Source: an uncultured Pelagibacteraceae bacterium
Lineage (GTDB): Bacteria; Pseudomonadota; Alphaproteobacteria; Pelagibacterales; Pelagibacteraceae
Assembly: GCA_902574685.1 (NCBI GenBank)
Contig: CACGOO010000001.1
Coordinates: 61,447-125,446 of the forward strand
Length of the DNA: 64,000 nt
Direction of reading: 5' to 3'
The notes beneath the pieces were generated by a model, which was not told where the DNA came from, did not search any database, and worked only from the letters and a program-made list of their open reading frames with translations. This document shows positions 15,910 through 51,815 of this stretch, in pieces (position 1 is the first letter of the stretch; every line of letters begins with the position of its first letter). The position numbers were made by a program, and so were the translations under genes.

Positions 15910-18495
15910 CAAAAGATTTCTCTCTGTTTTAAGTTTATTGTTTTCCTTGATTAATTGAATAATCATTTCTTTCATTATTCTATTCTCCTCAACTGCTCTA
16001 CCGGTTATCTGAGCTAGTCTTTCATTTTCTTTAGCTAATTGTAATTGATCAAATAATTTTTCTAGTTCAGGATCAATTGGTAGTCCCTCTATTTTTTTTC
16101 TAATATTATTTTGAATAACTTTCGTTAATGAAATACTTACTTGGCTATCTTTAAGTCCATTTTGTTCATTAAACTCTAGATTAAATTTTAGGCCGAAATT
16201 ATCAGTATTTTTGCTGATATTTAAACCAGCTTTTACTGCTAAATCATCATTCATAAAATGGGCCATGTCTTTTCTTTCACCGTCTGCAACAATGTCAATT
16301 TTTTCACTCAAAGTTTGATTTAAAGATAGGCCTGTATATGGCTTAAGAACGAAGCCATTTTCAAAAGATTTTGAATACTCAACATTAAATCCACCTGACA
16401 ATACTTGATCCACAGCATCATCAACAGAAAGATCCCCATCTGTAAAAGATGTTAGATAAGTTGGAAGTCTTCTTAGACCATATTTACCATCCACTTCAAT
16501 ATTTAAACTTTGACTATCATCAATTTCTATTTCTTTAGATGCTCTATAATTTACAGCAGCAAACTGACCTAGATTTTCTTTTGAAATAGTTTGCTTTGTT
16601 TCAGTTTCAAGATCTAAATATTTATTTTGAGTTAACCCAAAAATTGAAACTACAGAAAATTTAAATTTCTCGTAATCAATATCTTTTTTTAAACCAATAG
16701 CTAAATTTTCACTATCTATTGCTTCTCCATTATTAAATTTTGCCTGCTGAGATGAATAACTTAAGAACGGTGTAAAGTTATCGTTTTCAATTTTAAAGTC
16801 TCCCGTTACACCACTTGTTTCACTTTTATAAATATTATCTCTTTTTTTAACAGAATAATATCCACTAGATTTTTTTTCTTCAGAAACTGAATTAAAAATA
16901 TCATTTAAATTAGATAAAAATATTTCAGATCTATATTTTTTATTATGGCTATCAATATCTAAATCTTCACCATAAACATATAAAAAACCATCTGTTTCAG
17001 AGTTGTCTGCATCTGGATCACTGTTACTGTCTAATATTTCATAGGTATCATTTCCACAAAGATTATTTGTGACAACCATATTTGTTTTTCTAAGAATTTC
17101 TATTTTTTGATCTTTTGAAATACTACAATCTAATGTCATTGTCGTAGTTGAATCTTTTAAATCAATTGAGCCTTCATACGTACCTTCATCTTTAGTAACA
17201 ATATTTATACCTGTACTAGAAGAGTTAAGTATATATATAGAATTACCAGATCCAGTAATTGTACCATAATTATTTATCGTAATATTAAACATTGGGGTGG
17301 CATTCTTTCCAATACCAATTCCATCTGCAAAAGAACCTGATGTTGCACTAATCGTGCCATAATTGTTTAAAGTATTATTTACTCTGTTGGTTCCATCATT
17401 TTCATACAATATTCCATATCCTGTATTAGAGCTTGCAGAAATGGTTCCATGATTTGTTATCGTAGAATTATCTACATTTGAAGATTGCATTCCCATACCA
17501 ACCCCAGATATAGTGCCAGTATTGGTGACAACGGTGCCGTCCGATTGATTTATTGATAAACCTGAATTTACAGTTGTGGCAGTTATTGTTCCAGAATTTG
17601 TTATACTAATATTATCACCATGTGAAATTACTACTGCGTTATTTCCAGATGTCATTGTCCCTGTATTAATGAAAGTAGTATCCGGGCATGTTTTGCAATA
17701 AAATGCACTTTTATCTACTGCAGTTATTGTTCCATGATTAGTAAAATTGACATTTTCAGATTGTTCAGTATTAACTGCGTGTCTGTCGGCACTTTCAATT
17801 GTTCCTCCTTTGTAATTAACGAATTCAAAATCAACAACATGAAATGCTTTAATTGGGCTATCGCCTTCATCTGTTGTTTTAATAATTCCACCGTCATAAT
17901 TATAAATTTTAAGACCTTTACTCCTGTGATTACCTGAGGCTCCTGAACCTAACCAAATTGTTTCATGAGTAGAGGTAATGGTACCATAATTGTGTAGTGT
18001 GAGACCAACACCATTAGATTGACCAGATAAATCTGAATGGCAATGAGTGCCATTAAAATGACAGTTACCAACGTTTTTTCCATAAATTGCAGTATTTCCG
18101 TCAGCACTTATTGTTGCTCCTGCATTATTGGTAATTACAACGTTTTCTGCATAATTTAATATTATAGCATATTTGTTATCTGAGTTGATTGTTCCGTTAT
18201 TTGTAATTGTAGTATCCAAAGATGACTCAGCATTTATTGCGATTTGTTTGTTAGTTCCATCCTCTGTTTCAATTGTTCCATCATTAGTAATTTCAACTCC
18301 ACTTATATCTTCGAGATCAACTGCCTTATTATCGTTGTAAGTAATTGACCCAGCAGAAGTAACATTTAAAATATCATCATCTGCACATGCTAATTGGTTT
18401 GTTGAAGCACTAGCAATAGTTGTTAAACATGGACCAGCTAAACTATGAGAGCTAAATAAAAAGAATAAAATCAAACAAAGATATATTTTTTTCAT
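15898..18495 (-). CDS. large exported autotransporter-like protein: repeat passenger, predicted C-terminal beta-barrel, then C-terminal coiled coil
   Basis: Signal peptide MKKIYLCLILFFLFSSHSLAG; repeated ITNxGTI/LNNYGTI units; amphipathic beta-strand region; heptad-like C-terminus QLAKENERLAQITGRAVEENRIMKEMIIQLIKENNKLKTER. Confidence 0.75.
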   Translation of the reverse strand: MKKIYLCLILFFLFSSHSLAGPCLTTIASASTNQLACADDDILNVTSAGSITYNDNKAVDLEDISGVEITNDGTIETEDGTNKQIAINAESSLDTTITNNGTINSDNKYAIILNYAENVVITNNAGATISADGNTAIYGKNVGNCHFNGTHCHSDLSGQSNGVGLTLHNYGTITSTHETIWLGSGASGNHRSKGLKIYNYDGGIIKTTDEGDSPIKAFHVVDFEFVNYKGGTIESADRHAVNTEQSENVNFTNHGTITAVDKSAFYCKTCPDTTFINTGTMTSGNNAVVISHGDNISITNSGTITATTVNSGLSINQSDGTVVTNTGTISGVGMGMQSSNVDNSTITNHGTISASSNTGYGILYENDGTNRVNNTLNNYGTISATSGSFADGIGIGKNATPMFNITINNYGTITGSGNSIYILNSSSTGINIVTKDEGTYEGSIDLKDSTTTMTLDCSISKDQKIEILRKTNMVVTNNLCGNDTYEILDSNSDPDADNSETDGFLYVYGEDLDIDSHNKKYRSEIFLSNLNDIFNSVSEEKKSSGYYSVKKRDNIYKSETSGVTGDFKIENDNFTPFLSYSSQQAKFNNGEAIDSENLAIGLKKDIDYEKFKFSVVSIFGLTQNKYLDLETETKQTISKENLGQFAAVNYRASKEIEIDDSQSLNIEVDGKYGLRRLPTYLTSFTDGDLSVDDAVDQVLSGGFNVEYSKSFENGFVLKPYTGLSLNQTLSEKIDIVADGERKDMAHFMNDDLAVKAGLNISKNTDNFGLKFNLEFNEQNGLKDSQVSISLTKVIQNNIRKKIEGLPIDPELEKLFDQLQLAKENERLAQITGRAVEENRIMKEMIIQLIKENNKLKTERNLLLKN

Positions 18496-18507
18496 TATAT
18501 CTATTTG

Positions 18508-21500
18508 TTAATTTTCTCTCCAAGACTTTCTGTAAGTTTGAACTTCACCAGTAGCAGCATCTAAAGTAACAAGGTCAGCAACTGCTCCTAATGATTTACC
18601 AGATATATTTGCAAAAATTTTGCCAGCGAAAAGTACAATTTCTGATAAGACCCCTTTACCAACAAATCTACATAAAGTTTTTTGTTGTTCTGTTCTTTTA
18701 GATTCTAATCCAATAAACGAGTCATGTGTTCCACATTCATCATCAGTTACACAAATTAATGCATCTCCCAAATCACATTTGTTTTGAGATACAGATGGTC
18801 TATAAACTGGGAAGTAAACCATACCATTGTTTACTTTTGGTTGAGCGGTAACTTTAGCAAAATCTTTTAATACAACATACCAACCTCTATCCTTATCTGT
18901 CACTCTACAAGAAGTTCCGCTTCTATCATTTGATGTATTTTGGCATTTTGTAATATCGTCTGCATTTTTTGGAGTTGCGATAGATTTATAGAATGGATAA
19001 TCTGGATCTTTTATTCCAATCATTAAGTTACTTGTTCCTTTTACTCTTGCATTCAATCTTTGAGCATCCCCAGTTCCAGCGTACAACCATAAATTATTTG
19101 TTGTTCCACCAATTGAAGCATCTAATGGTTTATACATGTATCTACCATTTGATTTAGTTGCTCCTGCTTTAAATAATGTTGTTATGTCATACATTTTTAT
19201 AGGTACATTTTGAGGATCTGTACTCATATTTGTTAAATTTAATTTACTAATTTTACCTTCTAAATCAGACAAGTATACAAGTGCTCCTGCAAAGTCAGCA
19301 CCCCTTGCTTTATCTGGAGTAATAACTGTTAATGATGCGGGAACAGAATTATCAATATCGCTTGCAGTAGTATCTTCTACCGTAATTGTCTTTATTAATT
19401 GTCCAAACTTATCTTTTGATTGCAGATCTATAACAAATACGTTGCTACCAGCTCCTGAGAATTGAGCACCAAAACCTCCACCCATTACAGCAACTGATAT
19501 ATCGTCATCTCTGACATTGTCTCCAGCACCAGCATTAGGTAGTCTAAATATTCTTGGATCTGACCATGTTTCTCCAAGAGTACTGTAGTCCCATTCAGGG
19601 TCTGTTACAACTCCAGTACCAACTGCTCCTTGTTTTATATTCACTCCGATCGGTGAGTTGTCTCTTTGAGTTTTGGACTCATCAGCATCAAATTTCATTT
19701 TTTTGTTGAAATTAATTTGAGTGTTTCCAGATGTATCATAGCTAATTGTAATGCTATTTGTTATATCAACTCCATCTTCAAGAACTGATAGCATACTTTT
19801 AGTTAGACTTTTTACTGGTAAAGTCCATTTTGTGCTTTCGTAACAATATTTTGTTTGTGTATCATCACAAGTTTGCTTACTGGCAACTTCATTATCTTTA
19901 TCTGGAGCATAAACGTTACCTACTTCTTGCGCCTCTAGAAATTCACTTAGAGGATAAGATGTACCTATATAATCATATACAAAAACATTATTTGCATGAT
20001 CCATTCTGTACACCTGATTATTAATCATATCATTATATATTGAGACTAAATGCTCTGGTTTTGCAGGATCAGTCACATCTAACACAGAGAAACCACTACC
20101 TCCTCTTCCATAAGGTACAAACAATACGGTATGCCAATTTGCAGATGTATCATGTGGACTTTGAAAGAAAATATCATGTTGAACGGGAGATCCATCAACA
20201 CCATAAATTGCATTTGAACCTCCTTTGTTTGGATTAATTTCATTTAAGTTAGTATTCATTATTGTAGGTAATCTTGATGCTATAAATGGTGGCACAAATC
20301 CCCACAATTCTACTCCTGAGCCTGCATCTAAAGCATGCAAAACTCCACTATTTGATCCAGCATAAATTACAGGTTTTCTCAATCTCTGAGATTCTGCCCA
20401 ACTATCATATCCCTTAGTTGATCTCCAATAAGCTTCTTGATTTTCACTTGTAAAAGCTGTTTCTGCAGTTGGTGGTCCTACAACAACTAATTGTGAATGG
20501 TAAACATCTCCCATTGGCTTAGCTCTTGTTTCTGTCAGATTACAATCTGCATCATAATCAAAATAATCTGTCCCTCTAATAAAATTAATTAAGCCTTTTA
20601 AATCATCATCTGTTCCATCAGCAACACCACTTGTGTTCGCACATCTTTTATTATTTATAGAATTATCAGTATTTTTAGTTTTTCTGTGATAGTCCTGAAT
20701 ATCAAACCCTTTTAGAGTTAAGATACTTTCAATCGCTGAAGAATTACTATCTACCCAGTTGTTGTAATTAGTCGAATAATCTGTTCCAGGAATTGGACTC
20801 CATATCTTTCTATTCCCTGGTTTAGGTAATACATCAACAGCTGACCAATTACCTTTATCTTTTGTATCAAGATTTCCTTTTTTATCTATTTTTGTTCTCT
20901 TAATTGTTCCAGTCCACTCTTTATTTTGAGCATAATCAAACTGTGCTTGATACAATGATCCATCAGAGTTTAATGTTGCAGTAATAGCAGGCGCTGTGAA
21001 AGATAACTTAGATGCAATTATTTGTGAAACAGCAGCAGCTAGTTGAGTTTTGAGTGACTCTGCTGTTGGAGCAACAATAGCTTTTGTTGTTCCTCCTGCT
21101 ACAGCTAGTTCGTTAAAGTACCTCATTCCTCTATTGCTAATTCCTGTTCCAAAAGCAATGGCGAATGTGGGTATCTTATAATTATTAAATAAGTTTTTTG
21201 CCATAGCCACAGCTTTTGAGTGATTGTACCAATCACCATCTCCAATAACGAGGACATAACTTTTTTGACAAGGTGAATTTTTATCAATTGGGCTTAAACT
21301 TCCATGAAGATAATAGTCTTGAGCTATTTTCATAAATGTATAGGCATCAGTTCCACCTCTTGCATTAACTGACGAAATAATTTTGTTAATTTGCGCAGCC
21401 CCATTATTATGAACTCTTACTTTTAAACAGTTTTGGGTATCACAAGGTTTTGCTCTACCTGTGGTTATATCCCCTGACCATGAACTAAAACCTGGTGGCC

Positions 21501-22644
21501 ATGCTTTCGATGACCATGAACTTGACCAATAACCAAAGCCAAAATTTACACCTGATGTTAAATTGGAGTCTGTGACCACTGCTTTTATGGCTTTATGTGC
21601 TGCTGCCATTCTTGTAGTAGCAGCATATCCACCAATAGACTTTATATATGTTCCATTTTCATCAAAGACCTGAACTTTTTTTGCATTATATCCATAGGTA
21701 ATAATCCTATCATTGCTATGATCATAACTAATTCCAAAAGGATAATAAAAAAATGTATTACTTGCAGTTGAAATACCCATGTATCGGTATCTGCCTTTGT
21801 CCCAATTTAATGTGTATCCAGTTCTTGACGAGTTAACAGTTATTTTACGCATCTTATTATAGCTACGAGCCATAATATAAAGCACATCATTTGTGTTAGG
21901 GTCTGCTTCCATTCCATAAACATAGCCTGAAGCACTATCTCTAAAATATTTAGCTCTTCCTGAAGGACACAAAGTGCCTCCAACACTAGTTAAAGGAGCA
22001 CTATAAAGATAACGACTATAGTGACTGTAAAGAGTATTGTTACTTCCTGCAATAGCATATGTATATCTCCATTCATTATGGTAATTACAACGTCTTCCAC
22101 TATTAGTGTTCAGGTTCATTGAATACAAACCACTGTTGGAAGTGGTAAATAAATAATTTTGATAAACTGTTACACCTCTAGGATAAGTGCCAGTAGCTAA
22201 ACTTCCTAAACAAGCACCATCTGAAAGTCTAATCTTTCTAATTCTATGGTCATATAAACTTGCCACATACATGACCCCGTTATAAACATCTGCACTGTAA
22301 GGATAGTAAGTTCGACATGACCCACTCATACCAACTCTTCCATTTGAACCCCAAGAAGTATCAGTTTTACCAGTAGTATAATCTATTTTTCTAACCCCAT
22401 ATCTTGAAAATTGTGCAATATAAATATTTCCTGAACTGTCCGTAACACCATCAAACATTCTATTGATTGATTGTGCGTTACTCATTCTCCAACCCATACT
22501 TCCAGATTTATCTAAAAGAATTAATAAGTTGGAAGGAACATCAGCTTGTGTTCCAGTGCCTGGCGGCAATAATTTTGCATGTAAGTTTGATGCAAAAAAA
22601 GAAAAGAACAGTATTAGGCTGGATATAAAAATTTTAAATTTCAT
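18508..22644 (-). CDS. pilY1: PilY1/PilC-type tip adhesin with vWA domain
   Basis: Signal peptide, vWA MIDAS LLILLDKSGSMGWRM, later GGTDAYTFMKIA; PilY1 C-terminal propeller (PVIYAGSNSGVLHALDAGSGVELWGFVPPFIASRLP, LFVPYGRGGSGFSVLDVTDP); upstream of minor prepilins. Confidence 0.88.
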   Translation of the reverse strand: MKFKIFISSLILFFSFFASNLHAKLLPPGTGTQADVPSNLLILLDKSGSMGWRMSNAQSINRMFDGVTDSSGNIYIAQFSRYGVRKIDYTTGKTDTSWGSNGRVGMSGSCRTYYPYSADVYNGVMYVASLYDHRIRKIRLSDGACLGSLATGTYPRGVTVYQNYLFTTSNSGLYSMNLNTNSGRRCNYHNEWRYTYAIAGSNNTLYSHYSRYLYSAPLTSVGGTLCPSGRAKYFRDSASGYVYGMEADPNTNDVLYIMARSYNKMRKITVNSSRTGYTLNWDKGRYRYMGISTASNTFFYYPFGISYDHSNDRIITYGYNAKKVQVFDENGTYIKSIGGYAATTRMAAAHKAIKAVVTDSNLTSGVNFGFGYWSSSWSSKAWPPGFSSWSGDITTGRAKPCDTQNCLKVRVHNNGAAQINKIISSVNARGGTDAYTFMKIAQDYYLHGSLSPIDKNSPCQKSYVLVIGDGDWYNHSKAVAMAKNLFNNYKIPTFAIAFGTGISNRGMRYFNELAVAGGTTKAIVAPTAESLKTQLAAAVSQIIASKLSFTAPAITATLNSDGSLYQAQFDYAQNKEWTGTIKRTKIDKKGNLDTKDKGNWSAVDVLPKPGNRKIWSPIPGTDYSTNYNNWVDSNSSAIESILTLKGFDIQDYHRKTKNTDNSINNKRCANTSGVADGTDDDLKGLINFIRGTDYFDYDADCNLTETRAKPMGDVYHSQLVVVGPPTAETAFTSENQEAYWRSTKGYDSWAESQRLRKPVIYAGSNSGVLHALDAGSGVELWGFVPPFIASRLPTIMNTNLNEINPNKGGSNAIYGVDGSPVQHDIFFQSPHDTSANWHTVLFVPYGRGGSGFSVLDVTDPAKPEHLVSIYNDMINNQVYRMDHANNVFVYDYIGTSYPLSEFLEAQEVGNVYAPDKDNEVASKQTCDDTQTKYCYESTKWTLPVKSLTKSMLSVLEDGVDITNSITISYDTSGNTQINFNKKMKFDADESKTQRDNSPIGVNIKQGAVGTGVVTDPEWDYSTLGETWSDPRIFRLPNAGAGDNVRDDDISVAVMGGGFGAQFSGAGSNVFVIDLQSKDKFGQLIKTITVEDTTASDIDNSVPASLTVITPDKARGADFAGALVYLSDLEGKISKLNLTNMSTDPQNVPIKMYDITTLFKAGATKSNGRYMYKPLDASIGGTTNNLWLYAGTGDAQRLNARVKGTSNLMIGIKDPDYPFYKSIATPKNADDITKCQNTSNDRSGTSCRVTDKDRGWYVVLKDFAKVTAQPKVNNGMVYFPVYRPSVSQNKCDLGDALICVTDDECGTHDSFIGLESKRTEQQKTLCRFVGKGVLSEIVLFAGKIFANISGKSLGAVADLVTLDAATGEVQTYRKSWREN

Positions 22645-23192
22645 TAATTTTGAGACTCACTTTTCGCCATCTCTTCTTCAAGTTGATTATAGAAAATTCC
22701 AAGTAACTCATCATATTTTTTGTTAGAAAGATACATTTGCTCTTCAATAAATCCAAGATCATCCAAAGTTCTTTGGTAAACTATAAACTGCTTTGTTTTT
22801 TCAAATACTTCATATCCAAGATATGAGGTTGGAGTTTGACCTGTATCAAAGTCACCATAATTTCTTTTTACATATTTCATTATAGTTAATTTTTCAGATT
22901 TTTTTGTGTCGCTTTCAGTATTTAAACTAATTAAATTAACCGCAGCTAGTTTGTCGTTTAAAAATCTATACTCAATAGCAACATCTTTTAACCTGTGGTT
23001 TGGGCAGACTTCATCAGCAACAGCAATGACCATGCTCAATTCATCTTCTCCAAAATTTTCTAGTGGCATTGCTTGGCCATATTTGTCCTGTATTTTTGAG
23101 ATATCCTCTCCAAAATCTAAATCAAATTTACAAGCTGCGTTTGCATGAATTGAGAAAAGGAATATGAAGCTTATTAAAATAATTTTTTTCAT
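22644..23192 (-). CDS. small exported protein of unknown function in pilus operon
   Basis: Signal peptide MKKIILISFIFLFSIHANA; ATG/TAA junction with pilY1-like gene. Confidence 0.7.
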   Translation of the reverse strand: MKKIILISFIFLFSIHANAACKFDLDFGEDISKIQDKYGQAMPLENFGEDELSMVIAVADEVCPNHRLKDVAIEYRFLNDKLAAVNLISLNTESDTKKSEKLTIMKYVKRNYGDFDTGQTPTSYLGYEVFEKTKQFIVYQRTLDDLGFIEEQMYLSNKKYDELLGIFYNQLEEEMAKSESQN

Positions 23193-23242: not shown

Positions 23243-24001
23243 TTAATTTTTAGGTAAAACTACCACACTTTCTAACGAAACTATCATTCTATCTTTTTCT
23301 TTTTCAGCTCCATAAATACCACAACCATAAACTCTGTAAGCAATACCATTCTTTGAAGCATCAGATGCCGTTAATTTAATGCTGGATCCTATTGCTTGTG
23401 TACTTGCAGCACCAATTCTTTCAATAAAGTACTCATAATAATAACTTTTCATTCTAACTGCTTCCTCTTTTTCAAAATCTTTACCTTTATTTTTAAAGGT
23501 ATTTTCAAGAATTACTCCAAGATTAAAACTGTGAGCCACTTCTTTTTTCGTGGTTTCATTCTTTATAACTCTCATCCTTTTTTTGTTGTCTGGATTATCC
23601 CTATCAATATCTCTATAGCTTTTAAAACAAGATGTACCTGTATTTATAAATTTTCGATCAATTGTTGATGTAAATTTATATTTAGCACCTGGATTATAGT
23701 TTTGCGCACTCATAGTTCCTAAAAAAGGAGAGGTATGATCTTCTGGTAAATTTGCTTTCGAAGTATCTCTAGTGCTTTTTCCATCCCATGGCCCACTTTT
23801 CTCATTTAAAATATATTTCTCTCCTTCTAACAGAGCCATCTCTGCGGCATAAAATGTTTGTTGATATTGATCACTGTTATTATTGCTTTGATGGTCACCC
23901 GATGAAATTAATATTAATGCTCCACCCATTAATGACATTGCTAGTAGCAAAACTAATGACAAAACCATTGCAAACCCTTTTTCTGATTTTCTAATTATCA
24001 T
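23243..24001 (-). CDS. pilX: minor prepilin, PilX-like
   Basis: N-terminus EKGFAMVLSLVLLLAMSLMGGALILISSGDHQSNNNSDQYQQTFYAAEMALLEGE typical of PilX. Confidence 0.82.
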   Translation of the reverse strand: MIIRKSEKGFAMVLSLVLLLAMSLMGGALILISSGDHQSNNNSDQYQQTFYAAEMALLEGEKYILNEKSGPWDGKSTRDTSKANLPEDHTSPFLGTMSAQNYNPGAKYKFTSTIDRKFINTGTSCFKSYRDIDRDNPDNKKRMRVIKNETTKKEVAHSFNLGVILENTFKNKGKDFEKEEAVRMKSYYYEYFIERIGAASTQAIGSSIKLTASDASKNGIAYRVYGCGIYGAEKEKDRMIVSLESVVVLPKN

Positions 24002-24798
24002 AACCCCATATTTCTTGTGTATGCTGATACAACTAAAGCTTCTCTTAAAAACTTATCTGTGAATTTCTTATTAGATTTTTCACCTAAAAGTCTAAATGGT
24101 CTTTCCTGCTCTTTTCTAAAAAACTCACCTTGAGATCTTAAAGATACCATTATATCAACAACTTTAATCTTGTTACTATCGCTAAGCGTTTTAGGAATTG
24201 GATTCATCACTTTACCCTTGCTATCAATTGGAATAAAAATTAATTCTTGAACGTAATCAACTACTAATTCGTCTTTATAAAGTAAGTCATCAGTTGATTG
24301 TGTTGGTGCCGTCCAGCTAGATCCATTCCATTCATATTTTGATTTATAAATAGCATATGCATTAATTTTTTTGCTTGTTTTTTTGTCTAGAATATTTGAT
24401 GCTTTACACTCGTAAACGACTTTGTATGTTTTATATAAAAAAACTGGTGGTTTAGCATTAGGATTTTTAGGATCTCTAATTCTATCACCGTAAGTTATTT
24501 CAATTTTATCACAACCGCTACCTGGAGCTTTAGTAATTAAAATTGGAACGTAATTTGTTGGGGTTTTACTGACATCATCAAAATATCTAAAACCTGCAAT
24601 TCTTATATCTCTCACTAACATTCCAATCATATCTCTTCCTGTCTGACTAATTTTTGCTCTATCAATTACTTGTGAATAACTATTATTAACTGCGTTATAA
24701 GATGTAAACATAGCAGCCATCATTATCATTGAAATCACAACCCCGATAAGAATTTCAATTAGCGTTACTCCAGTTTCTGAATTAAATTTTTTCATCAT
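23998..24798 (-). CDS. pilW: minor prepilin, PilW-like
   Basis: ETGVTLIEILIGVVISMIMMAAMFTSYNAV type III signal; overlaps pilX and pilV genes. Confidence 0.82.
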   Translation of the reverse strand: MMKKFNSETGVTLIEILIGVVISMIMMAAMFTSYNAVNNSYSQVIDRAKISQTGRDMIGMLVRDIRIAGFRYFDDVSKTPTNYVPILITKAPGSGCDKIEITYGDRIRDPKNPNAKPPVFLYKTYKVVYECKASNILDKKTSKKINAYAIYKSKYEWNGSSWTAPTQSTDDLLYKDELVVDYVQELIFIPIDSKGKVMNPIPKTLSDSNKIKVVDIMVSLRSQGEFFRKEQERPFRLLGEKSNKKFTDKFLREALVVSAYTRNMGL

Positions 24799-25436
24799 TT
24801 CATTTGGAAATATAAATATTTCTTCTTTTGAACAGTTTTACCTTTTGTATCTGTCCCTGTAGTTGGCATTAATATTTCCATTCTGCCAATATAAGTTTTG
24901 TCCCAAATATCATCATTACGATAATCACAGTTTGGTCTACTCTTCCCATTTTCTTTTACGTTATTTCTACAAATCTCATAAACTTTTAATTTTTTTATGT
25001 CATTGGTAAGTGTTGAACCAATACTTGTAGGTTGGCATTTAATTCTGTCGCTTGATACTCTCAAATTCCACTTTTGTGTTTTATTATCAATAGCAATATC
25101 TGCGCCCTTATAAGGATTACCAGTTATATTATTTCTTTTTCTGCATTCTGCATTTTGCCAAGCGTAATCATTCTTATCTGTTAAGTTAGCCAGATGTTCA
25201 TAAAGTTTATCATCACCTTTTTTTGAATTTGCATCTCCAATTAAATCTTCTGCTATCATAGCAGTGATATAATTAGATTTTGTTCTTTCCCCAGAAACAT
25301 CAATTGATCTAACTGAATAATTGACCATCTGAAAAACCGCTATAAAACCTATTCCAACAATAGCCGTTGCAACTAAAGCTTCTAAAAGCGTTAAACCCTT
25401 TTCTTTTAATTTACTGTCTATTCCAATCACTTCCAT
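24795..25436 (-). CDS. pilV: minor prepilin, PilV-like
   Basis: EKGLTLLEALVATAIVGIGFIAVFQMV; IAEDL motif. Confidence 0.82.
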   Translation of the reverse strand: MEVIGIDSKLKEKGLTLLEALVATAIVGIGFIAVFQMVNYSVRSIDVSGERTKSNYITAMIAEDLIGDANSKKGDDKLYEHLANLTDKNDYAWQNAECRKRNNITGNPYKGADIAIDNKTQKWNLRVSSDRIKCQPTSIGSTLTNDIKKLKVYEICRNNVKENGKSRPNCDYRNDDIWDKTYIGRMEILMPTTGTDTKGKTVQKKKYLYFQMK

Positions 25437-26142
25437 TCCATTTAAATTTACTTACATTACCAAATCTTGACCATTTTACTAAATAGGCTGGTTTTTCAAG
25501 AGCCTTTCCTTTTGTAGGACATTTGTTTCCATTTTTTTTTGCGTTCTCATAAGTGCAAATAACAATGTAATTAGGAGTAGCGCTACCTTCAACAATGATG
25601 TTAACGTTACTTCCTTTTGAAAGAGCATTGGTTGCTTTATAATAATTTCCTCCTTTACCAAAACATATTGCAGATGTTAATAGAAAATGAACTGCAATTT
25701 TAGACTCGCCAATTACATTTTCCTCAGGATTGAAAATTTCGTAATACTCACTAAAATTTGTTCCCTCAATATTTTTACGTGGTTTACCAAAATCATCCCA
25801 ATAACCTGATGAGGATACTGGACAATTAATTTGTCCATTCTGCAATTTTTGTTTGAAATTTTTATCTCCCATTCCCTTTGATACAAAAATTGAGCTTTCT
25901 TGGTTTTTAGAGCCTGTAAATGTTCGTACCATTAATTGGCTATAAGCTAAGTTTCCTCTTTGAGTTTGTGTTGCAATATTAGAAATCATGCTTGCAACTT
26001 TTTCTGTTGCAGCTCTTACTTTTCGTTCTGTGCTCCATTTTGAAAAACTTGGATACGCTACACCAGATATGATTGCTACAATTGCAATAACAACTAGCAA
26101 TTCTAAAATTGTGAAACCTTTAATGTCCTGATCTTGCTGCAC
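25411..26142 (-). CDS. fimT: minor prepilin, FimT/FimU (GspH) type
   Basis: IKGFTILELLVVIAIVAIISGVAYPSFSKW; GspH-like size. Confidence 0.82.
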   Translation of the reverse strand: MQQDQDIKGFTILELLVVIAIVAIISGVAYPSFSKWSTERKVRAATEKVASMISNIATQTQRGNLAYSQLMVRTFTGSKNQESSIFVSKGMGDKNFKQKLQNGQINCPVSSSGYWDDFGKPRKNIEGTNFSEYYEIFNPEENVIGESKIAVHFLLTSAICFGKGGNYYKATNALSKGSNVNIIVEGSATPNYIVICTYENAKKNGNKCPTKGKALEKPAYLVKWSRFGNVSKFKWNGSDWNRQ

Positions 26143-27136
26143 CTGGATCTATCTTACCCGACTTTACTAATTCCTCCAGTGATTTTTCCATAGTGATCAT
26201 TCCATCACGCACAGCAGTTTGCATAATGCTTGGTATTTGGTGAATTTTTGCTTCTCTTATTAAGTTCTGAATTGGCGCAGTGCACTTCATGATTTCAAAT
26301 GCACCAACCCTACCAGCACCATCTCTTGTTTTTAACAATCTTTGGGTAACTACCATTTTTAGTGATGTAGAAATTTGAGCTCTAATTTGTTCTTGTTGCT
26401 CTGGAGGAAAAACATCAATTATTCTATTTATTGTGCTTGGCGCACCACTTGTATGCAAAGTTCCAAAAACTAGGTGACCAGTTTCTGCAGCAGTAAGCGC
26501 TAAACTAATTGTTTCAAGATCTCTCATCTCACCAACAAGAATTACATCTGGATCTTCTCTTAAAGCAGCTTTAAGCGCTGCTGCAAAAGATTGAGTTTGT
26601 TTTCCAACTTCTCGATGAGAAACAATGCTTTTATTATCTTTGTGAATAAATTCTACTGGATCCTCAACAGTTATAATATTTGATGTTCTTGTTTTATTAA
26701 TTTCATTTACGATTGCTGCAAGTGTTGTTGATTTACCTGAACCAGTTGGTCCAGTTACAAGCACCAGTCCTTTATGGAAATCTACTATATCATAAAGAGC
26801 TTGCGGTAGACTAAATTGATCCATATCTGGAATTTTACTTTCAACTCTTCTTAATACTGCAGCTGGTCCACTAATCGTTTTATAAAAATTTGCTCTAAAT
26901 CTTAATCCGCTTAACATGACTGCAGAATCTAACTCATGAGTCTTTTCAAATTTTTCAGCTTCGTGTTCGTTACAATTCATTGAGATTAAATCTTTTAAAT
27001 CTTGAGCTGTAACATTTGTACCTTCAACTTTTACGATTTCTCCAGTTTGTCGATAAGCTAGGGGAGATCCTGCCCTAATATGAAAATCAGAAATTTTCTT
27101 ATTATCTTTTGCTAACTGCTCTAATTTTTCAAACAT
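26120..27136 (-). CDS. pilT: type IV pilus retraction ATPase PilT
   Basis: GLVLVTGPTGSGKSTTLAAIVNEIN, ALREDPDVILVGEMRDLETISLALTAAETGHLVFGTLHTSGAP, AFEIM. Confidence 0.94.
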   Translation of the reverse strand: MFEKLEQLAKDNKKISDFHIRAGSPLAYRQTGEIVKVEGTNVTAQDLKDLISMNCNEHEAEKFEKTHELDSAVMLSGLRFRANFYKTISGPAAVLRRVESKIPDMDQFSLPQALYDIVDFHKGLVLVTGPTGSGKSTTLAAIVNEINKTRTSNIITVEDPVEFIHKDNKSIVSHREVGKQTQSFAAALKAALREDPDVILVGEMRDLETISLALTAAETGHLVFGTLHTSGAPSTINRIIDVFPPEQQEQIRAQISTSLKMVVTQRLLKTRDGAGRVGAFEIMKCTAPIQNLIREAKIHQIPSIMQTAVRDGMITMEKSLEELVKSGKIDPGAARSGH

Positions 27137-27290: not shown

Positions 27291-29006
27291 ATGAAAAACC
27301 CTTTTGCTAATTTATTCAAAAAGAAATCTAAAGAAGGTGAACAAACACCAGTTCCAAAAACAGAGGAAAAAAAGAAAAAAGAAAGTTTTTTAGGTAAGTT
27401 TTTTAAAAATAGAATTGGAAAATCTGCAGTTCAAGGAGAAGAAATTGTAGGTGTTGAGCTTTCACCAACAGAAATTAGGTTAGCACAACTAACAACTGAT
27501 AAATCCAACAAATGGGTTTTAGAAAAATTTTTTATTCACCCAATTGAAGGTCTAGATAAAAGTGCTACTGTTTTAGATAATCAAGATAAGTTTGGAGACG
27601 AACTTAAAATTGCTCTTCAAAAATCTAAAATAACTACGACAAATGCTGCGATTGCCATTCCTGTAACTAGTGCAATTATCAGAGTTGTAACAGCACCTCT
27701 AATGACAGATGAAGAGCTGAGCAAAGCAATAGACACAGACTCTCTTTGGGAAAACCTTGTACAATTAACAGATAACTTAAATGATTATTCAATTTTTCAT
27801 CAAGTAATAAATAGAGATAAAACCGCAAATACAATGGATATTTTATTCGTTGCATCGAAACTATCAGATATCAATAGTTATACAGCAATAATAAAGAAGG
27901 GTGGTTTAAATGCAGTTATAATTGATGTTAAGTGTTTTGCTCTTAAATCCGCAGTCGACCAAATGAATCAATTAGCTGGCTCAATTGAGGATGCAAACTT
28001 AACCGCTGTTTTAGAATTTGGATTAGATGAAAACTATGTAATGATTTTGTATGAAAATAATCCAATCATCACAGATATATTTATAAGATCTCAAGATAGA
28101 AATACTCTTCAAAATTCAGATAATCAGGAAGAGATGGATGCTTTAGTTAGAAGATATGTAACTCAAGTTAAACAAGCGGTGCAAGATTTTGAAACAAAGT
28201 ATGAAAAAAGAATTAGAAACCTGAAAGTAGTATCAAATTTAGAAAATGTAGAAACTTATCTTGGCACTTTTAGAAAAAATTTAACAAATACAGGATTTAA
28301 TTTATTAGATCCAATTAAAGAAATAAAAGTACCAGCACAACTAGAAGAGAGCGTTAAGTTAGATAATAGGTCTTATCTTTCAACTGTTATTGGATTGGCG
28401 TTTAGAAAACTTGATGTATTTGGATATTACAAATTTGTAACTGCTGTAAAAAATATAAATCTACTTCCTAATAGAGATAGCATGATAGCACAGAAAAAAG
28501 CCAAAGTATTTTCTAATTTTGCTTTCAAAGGCGCAATAGGAGTTATCGCAATAATTTATATAGTATTATTTGGCCTTTCTTTTTGGCAAATAAATACATT
28601 GAATAAACAATTAGTTGGATATGATGATATTCTTCAAACACATGAACTTAGAACATTAGAAAAAAATAAAGTAGAAAAAGAATTAGCTTTAATTTTAAAA
28701 TCTTTAAAAATTAGTAAATCAATAAAATCAAACAAAAAAGTGAGTTTTAGAGTTCTGGCTCAAATAGCTTCAGCTGTTCCAAAAAGAGTAAAATTCAATT
28801 CAATAGAGTACAACGGATCAAATCAGATTATTATACAAGGAACAGCATCAAGTGACCAAGATATTTTAAAGTTAATAAGTAATTTAAATAATAAAAAACT
28901 AATAATGCAAGCACAATTAGCCACAATGACCTTACCAGATGGTCAAACTGCTGGAGCTCCTACAATGAAGGGATTTAAAATAGCTTGTATTCTGGAGAGC
29001 GCATAA
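27291..29006 (+). CDS. pilM: fused PilM (actin-like ATPase) - PilN protein
   Basis: N-terminal PilM domain (IVGVELSPTEIRLAQL, AIAIPVTSAIIRVVTAP); after about residue 380 a PilN-type INLLP motif, one TM and periplasmic domain. Confidence 0.88.
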   Translation: MKNPFANLFKKKSKEGEQTPVPKTEEKKKKESFLGKFFKNRIGKSAVQGEEIVGVELSPTEIRLAQLTTDKSNKWVLEKFFIHPIEGLDKSATVLDNQDKFGDELKIALQKSKITTTNAAIAIPVTSAIIRVVTAPLMTDEELSKAIDTDSLWENLVQLTDNLNDYSIFHQVINRDKTANTMDILFVASKLSDINSYTAIIKKGGLNAVIIDVKCFALKSAVDQMNQLAGSIEDANLTAVLEFGLDENYVMILYENNPIITDIFIRSQDRNTLQNSDNQEEMDALVRRYVTQVKQAVQDFETKYEKRIRNLKVVSNLENVETYLGTFRKNLTNTGFNLLDPIKEIKVPAQLEESVKLDNRSYLSTVIGLAFRKLDVFGYYKFVTAVKNINLLPNRDSMIAQKKAKVFSNFAFKGAIGVIAIIYIVLFGLSFWQINTLNKQLVGYDDILQTHELRTLEKNKVEKELALILKSLKISKSIKSNKKVSFRVLAQIASAVPKRVKFNSIEYNGSNQIIIQGTASSDQDILKLISNLNNKKLIMQAQLATMTLPDGQTAGAPTMKGFKIACILESA

Positions 29007-29659
29007 TGGATTTAAAAAATATAGATTTAAAAAATATAAATGTAAGTGATATAGCTGCAAAGTTAAAAACTGTTGATAAAAAAACTCTTATTAAATTTGG
29101 AGCTGGTTTTTTTGCAATTATAATTTTTTTAATTGGGTATTACTTAATCTTAAATCCAATTGTTAAAGAGAAAAAAGCTTTATACGAAGACAAGGTTTTA
29201 AAAGAGTCTGAAATTACTCAATTCGAGGATGAGATAATTAAAAACAAAAAAAGATTAAAGAAACTAAAACCTCAATTTAAAGAAAGTTCAACGTTGTTTC
29301 ACTCAAAAGCTGAAGTTGAAGGATTGTATCAAAGCTTAAGTAGATTTGCAGGCATAAATGGTTTGACGATTTCAAAAATAGAAAAGAAAAAACCAAAACC
29401 TATTTTAAAACCTGGTGTTGCTCAACAAGCAGAAGAACTGTTAAAAAAAACGGATATCTCTTATTATCAGATACCCGTCGAATATGAGATAAAAGGTAAC
29501 TTTTTAGGCTACATTAAATTTAAAAGATCAATTGCAAAATCCAAGAAAATGTTAAATTTTGACAAGGAGACTATAAGTATAGTACAAAACGATTCAACTG
29601 GAGCGATAATTGCAAAAGGAGAACTTACAATAGTGGGAATACCGGATGAATTCTTTTAA
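29006..29659 (+). CDS. pilO: type IV pilus assembly protein PilO (ATG at 29006; ORF opens at 28985)
   Basis: Single TM, coiled coil, PilO-like LYQSLSRFAGINGLTISKIE, YYQIPVEYEIKGNFLGYIKFKRSIAK. Confidence 0.85.
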   Translation: MDLKNIDLKNINVSDIAAKLKTVDKKTLIKFGAGFFAIIIFLIGYYLILNPIVKEKKALYEDKVLKESEITQFEDEIIKNKKRLKKLKPQFKESSTLFHSKAEVEGLYQSLSRFAGINGLTISKIEKKKPKPILKPGVAQQAEELLKKTDISYYQIPVEYEIKGNFLGYIKFKRSIAKSKKMLNFDKETISIVQNDSTGAIIAKGELTIVGIPDEFF

Positions 29660-30110
29660 AAAAATATTATTCTTTATTTTGTTTTTCTGTATCCCAAACA
29701 TTGGTTTTGCAGATAATCATTCTACAAATGCTGAACTTGTCGAAAAGGCAAAAGAGATTACAAAAACTTTAGAAACAAAAGTTGAAGAAGAAGAAGAGGA
29801 TGTTCCTTTAAATGATCCATTTGCTGGAAACGAAGGATCTAATTCATCTTTAAATCCTGAAACAGGAGAAGAAAGAGATCCAATGAGTTTATATAATTTT
29901 AAATTATCAGGATTAATATCAGGAGCAAATGCGAGCTATATAAGTCTTACAGATGCATCAGGGGATGTAATGACTATTACACTTGGTCAATATCTTGGGA
30001 AAGTAAAATTAATTGACTTAAGATTAACAGAAGCAATCTTTTTAAAAGAAGATAAATCATACATAATTATAGATTTTAATAACCAAATAAGAGAGGCAGA
30101 TGAATACTAA
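29646..30110 (+). CDS. pilP: PilP-like pilus assembly protein
   Basis: Exported, Asp/Glu-rich linker, PilP/GspC-like HR domain (YNFKLSGLISGANASYISLTDASGDVMTITLGQYLGKVKLIDLRLTEAIF). Confidence 0.75.
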   Translation: MNSFKKILFFILFFCIPNIGFADNHSTNAELVEKAKEITKTLETKVEEEEEDVPLNDPFAGNEGSNSSLNPETGEERDPMSLYNFKLSGLISGANASYISLTDASGDVMTITLGQYLGKVKLIDLRLTEAIFLKEDKSYIIIDFNNQIREADEY

Positions 30111-31650
30111 AAAAATAATTACATCTGCATACTTAATAATATTAGCGATAATTTTAAATAGTTGTGGTCCAAACTCTAAATTTAATCAAAAATATAATAA
30201 ACCTTTTAAACACAACACACCTTTAATTAAAAATGATATAAGACAAACAGGTCAAGCAGAAATTGCTAAAACCTTAGAAATGGGACCTAAGCCAGTTGAT
30301 GGTGATGCGGTCAAATTAAAGAAAAGAAGAAAAATAACATCTGAAACACAAAGAAATTATCTTTTAATTCCTGAAAGCTACCCATTACTTAAACAAAGAG
30401 TAACTTTGAAATTTAAAAATTTAGATTTTAAAGAAACAATGAAAATGATGGGTAAAATTGGCGAAATTAATGTTTTAGTAGGAGATGAGGTTGCAGGTGC
30501 TATATCAGCTGAGTTAGTTGATGTACCATGGGATAAAGCATTCCAAGCTCTTTTAGACATGAAAAATTATGCTTCTGACATAGATGTTAACAGCAATTTA
30601 ATAAGAATTCACTCTCCTGAAACATTAACTGCACAAGAAACTTATAAATCTGAAAGAGCACAGGCAGTTAAAAATAAAGTAGAATTAGAAGATAGTGTTG
30701 AACCAATTATATCTGAAATTTTTAGATTATATTATATATCTCCTGAGTTAGCAAAAGCTACAATTGAAGAACTATTTCAGACTGGTTCAGGAGAAGCATC
30801 AACATCTCCTATAAAAATCACAGAAGAGACGGCCACTAGATCAATTATAGTCAGAGGTAAGGAAAGAGATTTAGATACTGTAGATAAAGTACTGACAGAA
30901 ATAGATATTAAAACTGAGCAAGTTCTTATTGAAGCATTTGTAGTAAAAGCTACTTCTGAATTTGAGAGACAACTTGGAACAAGACTAGGAGGATATTACC
31001 AAAGACAAAATGAGCAAATTGGTGGAGTTGTTGGAACAACAAGTTCATCAGGCACTTTAGATGATACATCTGCTGCACTTGTTCAAACAGCTAAAGATAG
31101 TTTAACAAATTTACCTGCAATTGGAGCGACGAGTGGTATTGGAGTATTAAAAAGAACAGGATCGGCTGTATTAAAAGCTGAGATTACAGCTTTAGAAAAA
31201 ACAGGTATAGTAGAGACAATTTCAAATCCAAAAGTATTTACAATCAACAATCAACCAGCATCGGTTACGCAAGGTAAAGAAATTCCTTACGAAACAACAT
31301 CTGAAGGTACAACATCAACATCATTTAAAGAGGCAGCATTAAAACTTCAAGTTACACCTAGCATTATTGGAGATGGTAATGTGTTGTTAGACATTCAGGT
31401 AAATAATGATGATGCTGATACTTCTCAGTCAGAACCTCCTATAACTAAGATGGAAATTACCACGAAATTATTGGTTGCTGATGGAGATATTGTTGTAATT
31501 GGTGGAATAAAATCAAATAATGTGACAAAAGCAAATGAACAGGTTCCAGGTCTTGGAAATGTCCCTGTAATTGGTAATCTATTAAAATATAAAAAGAATG
31601 AAGACAATTTGGAGGAATTGCTTATATTTATAGCACCAAGAATTTTATAA
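30100..31650 (+). CDS. pilQ: type IV pilus secretin, predicted lipoprotein (PilQ/MshL-like)
   Basis: Lipobox-like ILNSC; STN and secretin domains (VLIEAFVVKATSEFERQLG, VPGLGNVPVIGNLLKYKKNEDNLEELLIFIAPRIL). Confidence 0.9.
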   Translation: MNTKKIITSAYLIILAIILNSCGPNSKFNQKYNKPFKHNTPLIKNDIRQTGQAEIAKTLEMGPKPVDGDAVKLKKRRKITSETQRNYLLIPESYPLLKQRVTLKFKNLDFKETMKMMGKIGEINVLVGDEVAGAISAELVDVPWDKAFQALLDMKNYASDIDVNSNLIRIHSPETLTAQETYKSERAQAVKNKVELEDSVEPIISEIFRLYYISPELAKATIEELFQTGSGEASTSPIKITEETATRSIIVRGKERDLDTVDKVLTEIDIKTEQVLIEAFVVKATSEFERQLGTRLGGYYQRQNEQIGGVVGTTSSSGTLDDTSAALVQTAKDSLTNLPAIGATSGIGVLKRTGSAVLKAEITALEKTGIVETISNPKVFTINNQPASVTQGKEIPYETTSEGTTSTSFKEAALKLQVTPSIIGDGNVLLDIQVNNDDADTSQSEPPITKMEITTKLLVADGDIVVIGGIKSNNVTKANEQVPGLGNVPVIGNLLKYKKNEDNLEELLIFIAPRIL

Positions 31651-33398
31651 TGCTTAAAATTAGTAGAGAGTCTGAAATAAATTTAATTAATATTCTAATT
31701 GATCAGGATATTATTTCTGGAAAGGATTTAGTTGATATCAAGAAAGCTTCCTCAGAGGGAGAAAAATCTCAAATAGAAGCAGTATTTGAATTAAAGTTAA
31801 CTGACGAACAAAAAATTTTAGATCTTTTAGTAAATGAACAATCCCTAGATATAATCGATTTATCGAATGTGGAAATAACTGATGAAATAAAATCTATTCT
31901 TCCTTCAAATTACATAAATATGAATTTTATAGCCCCATTTAAAATTGAGGGAAATATTTTACATATAGCAATTCCAGACAGTTCAAAATTAAGTTTGATG
32001 AGAAATTTAAAAACTATCACAAAAAAAGATATTGAGTTACACGCTGCTAAAATTTCAGATATTTCATCCTATATAGACAGATTATTAGCTGATGGTGAAA
32101 CCACAATGGAGTCTATTCAAAAGGCTAATAGTGAAAAAACAAAAACTTTTGATTATGATGTCGATGAAAATGCTGAGGTATTGGAAGAAAAACCAGAAGA
32201 AGATATCGAAGCTATTGAAAATGAATCTGACGTAATCAAATTCAGTACAGCTGTAGTTGCAGAAGCTATTAAATCTGGTGTATCTGATATTCACATTGAA
32301 CCTTACAGATTTAGCTCTAGAGTTAGATATAGGTTAGATGGAATTTTAACTGAACAAGAACATTTTGCAAAATTTCTTCATTCAAATTATGGGGCAGTAG
32401 TAACACGTTTCAAAATTATGGGTAAACTTGATATTGCTGAAAGAAGGTTGCCACAAGATGGAGCTATACCATTTAAAATAGACGGAAAAGTAGTTGATCT
32501 TCGACTGTCAATTTTACCAACAGCAAATAATGAGAGAATTGTAATGCGGGTACTAAACAAAGATGCAGGAGACATAAGTTTAGAACAGTTAAATTTTGAG
32601 GAAACGGATTTATCTAATTTAAGAAAAGCAATTCATGGAACACAGGGATTAGTTCTTGTAACTGGACCAACGGGTTCAGGAAAAACAACAACTCTTTATA
32701 GTATTCTTAAAGAGGTTTCTAAACCTCATTTAAATATTTTAACAGCCGAAGATCCAGTTGAATATGAATTAGATGGTGTTGGACAAGTTCAAATAAAAGA
32801 TGATATTGGTTTAAATTTTGCTGCAGCACTTAGATCTTTTTTAAGACAAGACCCAGAAATTATTCTTGTTGGTGAGATGCGAGACAAAGAAACTGTAGAT
32901 ATAGGATTAAAAGCAGCACTAACAGGACACTTAGTGTTCAGTACTCTGCACACAAATGATGCACCAAGCACAATTACAAGATTACAAAATATGGGAACCC
33001 CAGATTATTTAATAAGTGCAGCTGTTTCACTCGTATTAGCACAAAGACTTGCAAGAAAAACTTGTACTGAATGTAGAGAGCCAGATGAAGATATTACACC
33101 AAAAGCACTTGCTGACTTAGGATTTACAGTAGAACAAGCATCAAGAGCAAAAGTTCAAAAGGGAAAGGGATGCGCTAAATGCAAAGACACAGGATATAAA
33201 GGACGAATGGGAATTTATGAAATTTTAAATGTTACAAAACCAATTAAAGAAGCAATTTTAAGAAAAGCAACCACTCCTGAGTTAAAAGAAATTGCTGCAA
33301 ATGAAGGTTTTAGAACAATGCAAGATATGGGAAGAGAGCTTATTTTAACGGGAGACTTGAATTTTAGAGAATACGATAGAGTTCTATCGATGGATTAA
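31650..33398 (+). CDS. pilB: type IV pilus extension ATPase PilB
   Basis: GPTGSGKTTTLYSILKEV, LRQDPEIILVGEMRDKETVDIGLKAALTGHLVFSTLHTNDAPS, CTECREP...CAKCKDTGYKGRMGIYEIL. Confidence 0.95.
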   Translation: MLKISRESEINLINILIDQDIISGKDLVDIKKASSEGEKSQIEAVFELKLTDEQKILDLLVNEQSLDIIDLSNVEITDEIKSILPSNYINMNFIAPFKIEGNILHIAIPDSSKLSLMRNLKTITKKDIELHAAKISDISSYIDRLLADGETTMESIQKANSEKTKTFDYDVDENAEVLEEKPEEDIEAIENESDVIKFSTAVVAEAIKSGVSDIHIEPYRFSSRVRYRLDGILTEQEHFAKFLHSNYGAVVTRFKIMGKLDIAERRLPQDGAIPFKIDGKVVDLRLSILPTANNERIVMRVLNKDAGDISLEQLNFEETDLSNLRKAIHGTQGLVLVTGPTGSGKTTTLYSILKEVSKPHLNILTAEDPVEYELDGVGQVQIKDDIGLNFAAALRSFLRQDPEIILVGEMRDKETVDIGLKAALTGHLVFSTLHTNDAPSTITRLQNMGTPDYLISAAVSLVLAQRLARKTCTECREPDEDITPKALADLGFTVEQASRAKVQKGKGCAKCKDTGYKGRMGIYEILNVTKPIKEAILRKATTPELKEIAANEGFRTMQDMGRELILTGDLNFREYDRVLSMD

Positions 33399-33400
33399 AA

Positions 33401-34642
33401 ATGTCATCCGAAACATTTTCATATAAGGGTATATCTGCAGGTAAATATATAGAGGGTGAGATTGAGGCAATTAATCAAGAGGAAGCCTCGTTTAAACTTA
33501 AAGAACAAAAAGTAATAATCACAAATTTAACAAAAGTTAAAAAGAAAAAAGCAGAAAAAGACAAAAAAAAGGGTGGTGGATTTTCATTTGGAAAAAAGAA
33601 AGTAAAGCCAGAAGATGTAATGATTTTCTCCAAACAGTTTGCAACAATGGTAAAAGCTGGATTGCCAATATTAAATGTGTTGGGAATGTTAAGAGATCAA
33701 ATTGAGCATCCCACAATGAAAGAAATTATTGAAGATGTTAGAAAAAATCTTGAAGGCGGTATTACTTTATCAAAGTGTTTTGAAAAATACCCAAAAATAT
33801 TTGATAATGTTTATATAAATCTTATCAAAGCAGGTGAGGCCAGCGGTAAATTAGATGTTTTCTTACTTAAATTAGTCGACTCTCTTGAGAAACGAGAAAA
33901 AGTCAAAAAAAAAATCAAAAGTGCATTAACTTATCCGGTTGTTATGTTTTCGGTCGCCATAATAGTTATGGTTTTCATGTTAATCAAAGTCGTTCCAGTA
34001 TTTGCTAAAATGTATGATGGTATGGGTGTTGCATTACCAACACCGACTGCAGTAATTATGACTGCAAGTAATTTTATGAGAGGTGCTGGTGGTTTAACTT
34101 TAGGTTTAGTGCTACTTACAATATTTATTATTTTTAAATACACAACCACTAAGATGCCAGCAGTAAGATATAAATGGCATCAACAAGTTCTTAGAATGCC
34201 AGTATTTGGTGATATGATTTTAAAGTCTTTAATAGCAAGAATTTCATTGATCATGGGAAACCTAAGTGCTGCAGGTGTTAATTTACTTGAAAGTATTGAG
34301 ATTGCTAAATCAGTCAGCAACAATGATGTAGTAACACAAGCATTAGAGAATGTTAAAAAAGGAGTATTTTCAGGAGATACATTAACAAAACTTTTTTTAA
34401 AAGAACCAGTATTTCCACCAACGTTTAGCCAATTAATCTCTGTTGGAGAGCAAACAGGAAATTTAGATGAAATGTTTAGCTCTGTCTCTGCTTATTACGA
34501 AGAAGAATTTGACACCGCCGTTGATAACATGTCTAGTTTAATTGAACCTATTATGATTGTATTTATGGGAACAATGATTGGTGGACTAATGATCGCGATG
34601 TACTCACCAATATTCAACGTTGGTGCAATAATTGGAAGTTAG
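33401..34642 (+). CDS. pilC: type IV pilus inner membrane platform protein PilC
   Basis: GspF-type domains: IFSKQFATMVKAGLPILNVLGMLRDQ, LIKAGEASGKLD, TFSQLISVGEQTGNLDEMF. Confidence 0.95.
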   Translation: MSSETFSYKGISAGKYIEGEIEAINQEEASFKLKEQKVIITNLTKVKKKKAEKDKKKGGGFSFGKKKVKPEDVMIFSKQFATMVKAGLPILNVLGMLRDQIEHPTMKEIIEDVRKNLEGGITLSKCFEKYPKIFDNVYINLIKAGEASGKLDVFLLKLVDSLEKREKVKKKIKSALTYPVVMFSVAIIVMVFMLIKVVPVFAKMYDGMGVALPTPTAVIMTASNFMRGAGGLTLGLVLLTIFIIFKYTTTKMPAVRYKWHQQVLRMPVFGDMILKSLIARISLIMGNLSAAGVNLLESIEIAKSVSNNDVVTQALENVKKGVFSGDTLTKLFLKEPVFPPTFSQLISVGEQTGNLDEMFSSVSAYYEEEFDTAVDNMSSLIEPIMIVFMGTMIGGLMIAMYSPIFNVGAIIGS

Positions 34643-51083: not shown

Positions 51084-51147
51084 AATTCAATAAATTGCTA
51101 AAATTATTTTAATGCAAATACTTAAAGCTATGATATTATCACTTTTA

Positions 51148-51194
51148 GATAGTCCTATCTAGCCATCTTTAGCTCCCGGTTTTTTAGGACTATC
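51148..51194 (+). promoter_or_regulatory. 10-bp perfect inverted repeat in the leader of the LysE-family gene (candidate cis-regulatory hairpin or operator)
   Basis: GATAGTCCTA (51148-51157) and TAGGACTATC (51185-51194), 27-nt loop, ending 6 nt before the ATG at 51201. Confidence 0.5.
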
Positions 51195-51200
51195 CATAAA

Positions 51201-51815
51201 ATGCTTCCCTTAGATTTTATCCTTTTTTTACAGATAATCATTTTTATGTTTATAACTCCTGGAACGCCTAGAATTGTAATTATTTCTTACTCAATGAATT
51301 ATGGTGTTCAAAAGTGTATTTGGACTGCATTAGGAGACGTAACCGCAAATATAATTCAGGCAACACTTGTAATATTTGTTATTGGATCTTTTTTGTCTGA
51401 CAATCCAACAATATTAAATACATTAAAATGGTTGGGTATCGCTTATTTAACATACCTTGCATATGATATTTATAAATCGAAACCTAAAGATATAAATACA
51501 AAAGATATTTCAGATAAAAGTTTTTTTTCATTTTATAAAGATGGTTTTTTAGTTGCAGGAACAAGTCCTAAAGCATGGATGTTTTTTCCTTTTATATTCC
51601 CACAATTTATTGATTTTAATTCTAATTATGTGATTCAATTTATTATTTTAATTACTACTTATGTCATTTTAGATTTTTTATCTTTGGTTGGATATGCAGT
51701 CTTAGCTAATAAGTTAATTGTTTGGATAAAAGCTAATCCTAAAATTATAAATACAATTTCTGCTTGTGTAATTATTTTGATTGCAATAATTATTGCATTT
51801 ACCCAACAATACTAA
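51201..51815 (+). CDS. LysE/RhtB-family amino acid exporter
   Basis: MFITPGTPRIVIISYSMNYGVQKCIWTALGDVTANIIQ; six hydrophobic segments; GTSPKAWMFF. Confidence 0.85.
   Translation: MLPLDFILFLQIIIFMFITPGTPRIVIISYSMNYGVQKCIWTALGDVTANIIQATLVIFVIGSFLSDNPTILNTLKWLGIAYLTYLAYDIYKSKPKDINTKDISDKSFFSFYKDGFLVAGTSPKAWMFFPFIFPQFIDFNSNYVIQFIILITTYVILDFLSLVGYAVLANKLIVWIKANPKIINTISACVIILIAIIIAFTQQY

Follow-up and report, generated by a model that had tools for sequence, protein, structure and literature searches.

We identified in a 64,000-nucleotide stretch of a SAR11 genome (hereafter, the window) a gene for a 1378-aa PilY1-type protein whose vWA domain, with an intact MIDAS, very likely harbors a six-bladed NHL-like beta-propeller between its strand 1 and helix 1. 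The host genome measures 1.04 Mb, is 78.5% complete, and has close relatives recorded as Pelagibacteraceae. The protein is a real, lineage-wide variant of PilY1, and the split vWA domain with its propeller is what is new. A literature search, which reached few subscription papers and preprints, found no paper that treats the NHL repeat and PilY1 together and, to our knowledge, a propeller nested in the vWA metal-binding loop of a pilus-tip protein has not been described before. As an overall explanation, we consider it probable that the gene encodes a PilY1 tip protein carrying the nested propeller as a variable recognition head.

The protein has several features of the PilY1 family, namely a C-terminal propeller, an N-terminal vWA domain with a MIDAS, as in a subset of the family, and a neighborhood of minor pilin and type IVa pilus (T4aP) genes. 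Its C-terminal half matches the structure of Pseudomonas PilY1 (PDB 3hx6) with an E-value of 1e-14 over aa 704-867, and the protein scores above the Pfam cut-off for PF05567 (41.5 bits), a family that was not listed by the hmmscan run with the entire 1378-aa protein. Thus, the further C-terminal PilY1 propeller reported in the initial annotation of this DNA is real. The gene lies within a near-complete type IVa pilus locus: four minor pilin genes and a PilT-type ATPase gene precede it on the same strand, and the genes for PilM-N, PilO, PilP, PilQ, PilB and PilC are carried on the opposite strand (Table 1). Between PilX and PilY1 there is also a gene for a 182-aa secreted protein, which changes little among close genomes. 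We predict that the 1378-aa protein acts in a SAR11 type IVa pilus as its PilY1-type tip and priming protein, which would be located at the pilus tip and have roles in priming, adhesion and retraction. Elsewhere in the window (51130-51207, +) we detected an rhtB sRNA (RF01814; 78.6 bits).

Table 1. Features of the PilY1-type protein and of its pilus locus, in window coordinates.
Feature	Position	Strand	Basis or remark
PilY1-type tip protein (predicted), 1378-aa ORF	18508..22644	-	PF05567, PDB 3hx6
Signal peptide, aa 1-23	22576..22644	-	by inspection of the sequence
vWA strand 1 and MIDAS DxSxS, aa 38-50 (DKSGSM, aa 45-50)	22495..22533	-	VWA_2, model strand
Nested six-bladed NHL-like beta-propeller, aa 54-340 (blades about aa 63-338)	21625..22485	-	model, Foldseek, profile
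vWA remainder from helix 1 on, aa 341-545	21010..21624	-	AF2 models, Foldseek
MIDAS Thr432, invariant	21349..21351	-	SAR11 alignment
MIDAS Asp469, invariant	21238..21240	-	SAR11 alignment
C-terminal PilY1 beta-propeller region, aa 704-1378	18511..20535	-	PF05567, 3hx6; without the usual calcium motif
182-aa secreted protein, family-less, in operon	22644..23192	-	
Segment between the 182-aa protein gene and the PilT-type gene	23243..26142	-	
PilT-type retraction ATPase (T2SSE family)	26120..27136	-	
T4aP assembly genes: PilM-N, PilO, PilP, PilQ secretin, PilB ATPase, PilC platform	27291..34642	+	

The MIDAS motif DKSGSM occupies aa 45-50 and helix 1 (TRMAAAHKAIKAVV) starts at aa 344-345, bearing out the length of about 290 residues first estimated for the insert. 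The initial annotation had placed the insert at 21590-22480; the region agrees with our assignment (approximately aa 51-340, 21625-22494), the exact ends do not. A Pfam VWA_2 match begins at aa 40. The spacing from MIDAS to helix 1 is 298-457 residues in all 29 aligned SAR11 homologues, an alignment in which D45, S49, T432 and D469 never vary and 28 of the sequences have S47. This retention of MIDAS residues before and after the insert suggests a vWA domain that is divided yet intact, as expected of one that stays functional around an insertion. When folded alone, aa 341-560 adopted a vWA domain without strand 1 (pLDDT 86.6, pTM 0.84), and Foldseek matched this part to almost only vWA-fold or I domains among the 50 structures listed, including VWF A3, TRAP, CD11b, LapA and the PilB pilin of S. 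sanguinis. A profile of the vWA remainder produced a weak vWA match against PDB sequences (PTMP1, E = 0.1); the identity of the domain, a Rossmann-like fold with a MIDAS, was settled by the structural search. Strand 1 would presumably complete the vWA sheet. We also looked for a second, contiguous vWA domain elsewhere in the protein and found none; strand 1 and the DxSxS motif are located ahead of the insert.

To model the fold, we used AlphaFold2 on aa 24-700 (677 aa) with an alignment of 29 SAR11 sequences. The model (mean pLDDT 80.5, pTM 0.51), which does not fix the placement of the propeller relative to the vWA domain, has strand 1 followed by approximately 24 strands arranged as six four-stranded blades (aa 63-338) and then by the vWA helices and strands up to aa 544. 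Confidence within the insert was mostly 85-94 (pLDDT). Propellers held the top ranks in Foldseek; among them, the NHL domain of TRIM71 had a TM of 0.73 (by target length) and Pizza6, a six-bladed design, a TM of 0.80 (3.4 A). Further, a profile of the insert matched NHL propeller structures (TRIM71, Thin and others) with a best E-value of 1.8e-22, and the Pfam NHL family matched 12 of the 29 SAR11 inserts searched alone (best 2.1e-9). At the sequence level, the propeller-like signal of the insert is far beyond chance. The insert has the six blades of four strands and the NHL-type repeats of NHL propellers, and the proposal that a propeller interrupts the vWA domain between strand 1 and helix 1 held up on both model and profile. 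The window's own insert copy, with its degenerate repeats, gave weak Pfam and NCBIfam propeller matches when searched alone, and this and the small model alignment (29 sequences) could mean that the model over-read a beta-rich segment like those of other PilY1 proteins, a reading made very improbable by the profile match to solved NHL propellers (1e-22), the NHL matches in other inserts and the Foldseek agreement with six-bladed designs. An assembly or fusion artifact was ruled out because independent single-cell and metagenome assemblies have the identical architecture. We also rejected a recent import of the insert from phage, as the insert had no match in phage records, a comparison that tests borrowed sequence only. 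A scan of viral contigs with the whole 1378-aa protein found no relative.

Wherever a SAR11 homologue can be read at this position, in either of two SAR11 families, it has the insert. The length is 286-293 residues in close relatives; L062 and L063, from the other family, have 299 and 291 residues, respectively, and more divergent SAR11 members have up to 445. The gene was present in 41 of the 105 good Pelagibacterales genomes sampled. PilM exceeded its family cut-off in all six protein-bearing genomes examined and in none of the eight examined that lack the protein, the latter taken non-randomly from the top of the list. Some SAR11 genomes encode two or three PilY1 paralogues (L049:10317-14942; genome G830), and in the L049 paralogue the MIDAS is degraded (DRTFSM) and the insert reaches 445 residues. 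The search for insert-free versions suggested in the initial annotation returned no SAR11 copy without the insert among the homologues examined; outside SAR11, none of about 40 PilY1-type loci had the propeller insert.

Outside SAR11, PF05567 was detected in 106 of the 398 further genomes sampled from the phylum and in just two of the 384 further ones from the class, both from one family (f25). With a profile of aa 24-700, matches to other PilY1 proteins were confined to the part after the insert and matches to stand-alone NHL-type proteins to the insert itself, and the insert profile alone had no match in about 40 non-SAR11 PilY1 loci. Where the MIDAS could be read in PilY1 proteins outside SAR11, four (L110, L113, L115 and L128) have a direct link to helix 1, with 14-20 residues, and eight have 62-365 residues in between, as read from motifs. 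We searched six of these inserts in Pfam and obtained no convincing match. In the nearest non-SAR11 relative (alphaproteobacterial f25, L068/G103), the contig begins just upstream of helix 1. Two of the proteins with a direct link (L113 and L115) have a very large insert of repeats further on in the vWA domain, approximately 730 residues separating the MIDAS from the SDG motif. In the PilY1 family, the strand 1-helix 1 junction is an insertion hot spot, filled by the propeller in SAR11. Given that other PilY1 proteins carry inserts at this junction, the tip architecture, once annotated as unusual, is so for its propeller content and not for its position.

Comparison of near-identical genomes put the rate of change in the insert at about ten times that in the remaining protein. 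Eight near-identical proteins vary at 31 of 287 sites in the insert versus 12 of 1068 elsewhere (Fisher, 4e-13), an enrichment repeated in two more clusters (3e-19 and 4e-6). In two close pairs the insert dN/dS was 0.99 and 1.15, compared to 0.00-0.09 elsewhere; low insert dS contributes to these ratios, and dN itself was several-fold to more than tenfold higher. At larger distances the ratio was 0.13-0.31, above that of the rest of the protein in most pairs, indicating that the fold is kept. The exception was the L067/L007 pair, with an insert less variable than the rest. In an exploratory test with hand-assigned blade boundaries, three clusters had their variable sites preferentially in the BC and DA loops compared with the AB and CD loops (p = 0.009, 0.002 and 0.025), a preference not seen in a fourth comparison. 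The first blade strand of the propeller is an A strand and the last a D strand and, thus, both ends exit adjacent to each other on one face. As this is the BC/DA face, the MIDAS loop of the vWA domain would be attached near the fast-changing face. The surrounding pilus genes change little, whereas the neighboring 865-aa gene changes more. The 865-aa protein, encoded just downstream of PilY1 (15898-18495, -), combines a signal peptide, repeated TNNGTI-type stretches and a coiled coil with a C-terminal part that is barrel-like, and it resembles an autotransporter adhesin. It differs by up to 23% of its amino acids among genomes whose PilY1 proteins are 98% identical. An autotransporter adhesin adjoining type IV pilus genes has been described in coastal SAR11 (PMC12636525).

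These features suggest a division of labor in which the C-terminal propeller would dock on the minor pilins, the vWA domain would bear the pulling force and bind metal, and the nested propeller, placed at the distal end of the pilus next to the MIDAS loop, would serve as a ligand-recognition head. Fast variation in the strand-connecting loops of the entry face could then alter what the pilus binds or allow escape from phages that use the tip. We regard the variable recognition head as the likeliest function of the nested propeller, if tentatively and at somewhat less than even chances. The high variation of the insert need not reflect ligand choice and could come from recombination, relaxed constraint or pressure from phages. 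Phages commonly use pili as receptors, and the confinement of rapid change to one exposed module with an intact fold, next to an autotransporter-like gene that is also highly variable, would suit a propeller that is mainly a shield or decoy over the MIDAS face and varies to escape tip-binding phages without a change of ligand. We know of no phage that binds the SAR11 tip, however, and the lack of insert matches in phage records, which bears on borrowed sequence only, also weighs against this explanation, which we consider unlikely. Slightly less likely still is that the insert is a structural spacer or a relic under weak constraint, with binding elsewhere in the protein. The close-pair dN/dS values near 1 are also expected from relaxed constraint and unrelated inserts fill the same place in other PilY1 proteins, yet the lower insert ratios at greater distances and the retention of the insert in all of the SAR11 homologues examined argue against such a role.

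The C-terminal propeller also has a lineage-specific trait. A DxDxDGxxD calcium loop precedes a conserved YxGD-like strand in seven of seven outgroup PilY1 proteins and is replaced in all 29 SAR11 sequences, at approximately aa 1109-1118 of the 1378-aa protein (C-terminal propeller region, 18508-20535, -). A relative from family f25 (L069) has a similar replacement. The calcium motif is common, though not universal, in the PilY1 family (PMC13190605), and in Pseudomonas the calcium site of PilY1 governs pilus extension and retraction (PMC13190605, PMC11891296). As the motif required in Pseudomonas is absent, the behavior of the SAR11 tip may differ and, by analogy, calcium control of pilus extension and retraction is probably different in SAR11.

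Among known systems, PilY1 of P. aeruginosa and its PilY1/PilC relatives (PF05567; 3HX6) share the signal peptide, the N-terminal vWA domain with a MIDAS, the C-terminal propeller, a gene position beside minor pilins and, in other PilY1 proteins, strand 1-helix 1 inserts. The SAR11 proteins differ in that their insert is a recognizable NHL-like propeller and in lacking the calcium motif. Known NHL propellers (TRIM71, Brat and Thin; Pizza6) resemble the SAR11 insert in fold and profile, but they are stand-alone or C-terminal in intracellular proteins or designs, whereas the SAR11 propeller is secreted and nested. Streptococcus sanguinis PilB is also a type IV pilus vWA adhesin with a MIDAS (PMC8179133), yet it is a pilin with a grafted module and no propeller. 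The PilY1.1 and PilY1.2 proteins of Myxococcus xanthus similarly carry a lineage-specific N-terminal module (PMC13190605), but there DUF4114 replaces the vWA domain that SAR11 keeps, interrupted. I-domain integrin alpha subunits also nest a MIDAS-bearing vWA domain and a beta-propeller at an adhesive tip (PMC3192720, PMC10659397), although in them the propeller is the host and receives the vWA domain between its blades 2 and 3, and the blades are seven of the FG-GAP type rather than six NHL-like ones. With its reverse nesting and NHL-type blades, the SAR11 protein does not fit the integrin pattern of a heterodimer whose FG-GAP propeller contains an I domain, and we do not claim homology. It is conceivable, if quite doubtful, that the SAR11 tip is a convergent counterpart of the integrin head, in which the hypervariable propeller face and the MIDAS would form one composite metal-dependent cleft and tension on the vWA domain would alter the affinity of the propeller site.

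The SAR11 nesting is, thus, the reverse of that in I-domain integrins. It demonstrates that PilY1 can accommodate entire folded domains at its strand 1-helix 1 junction, a point of general relevance to the coupling between force and ligand binding in PilY1 proteins. For SAR11, a dedicated, fast-changing tip module provides a concrete lead to the contacts of these bacteria, be they binding targets or a route of infection.
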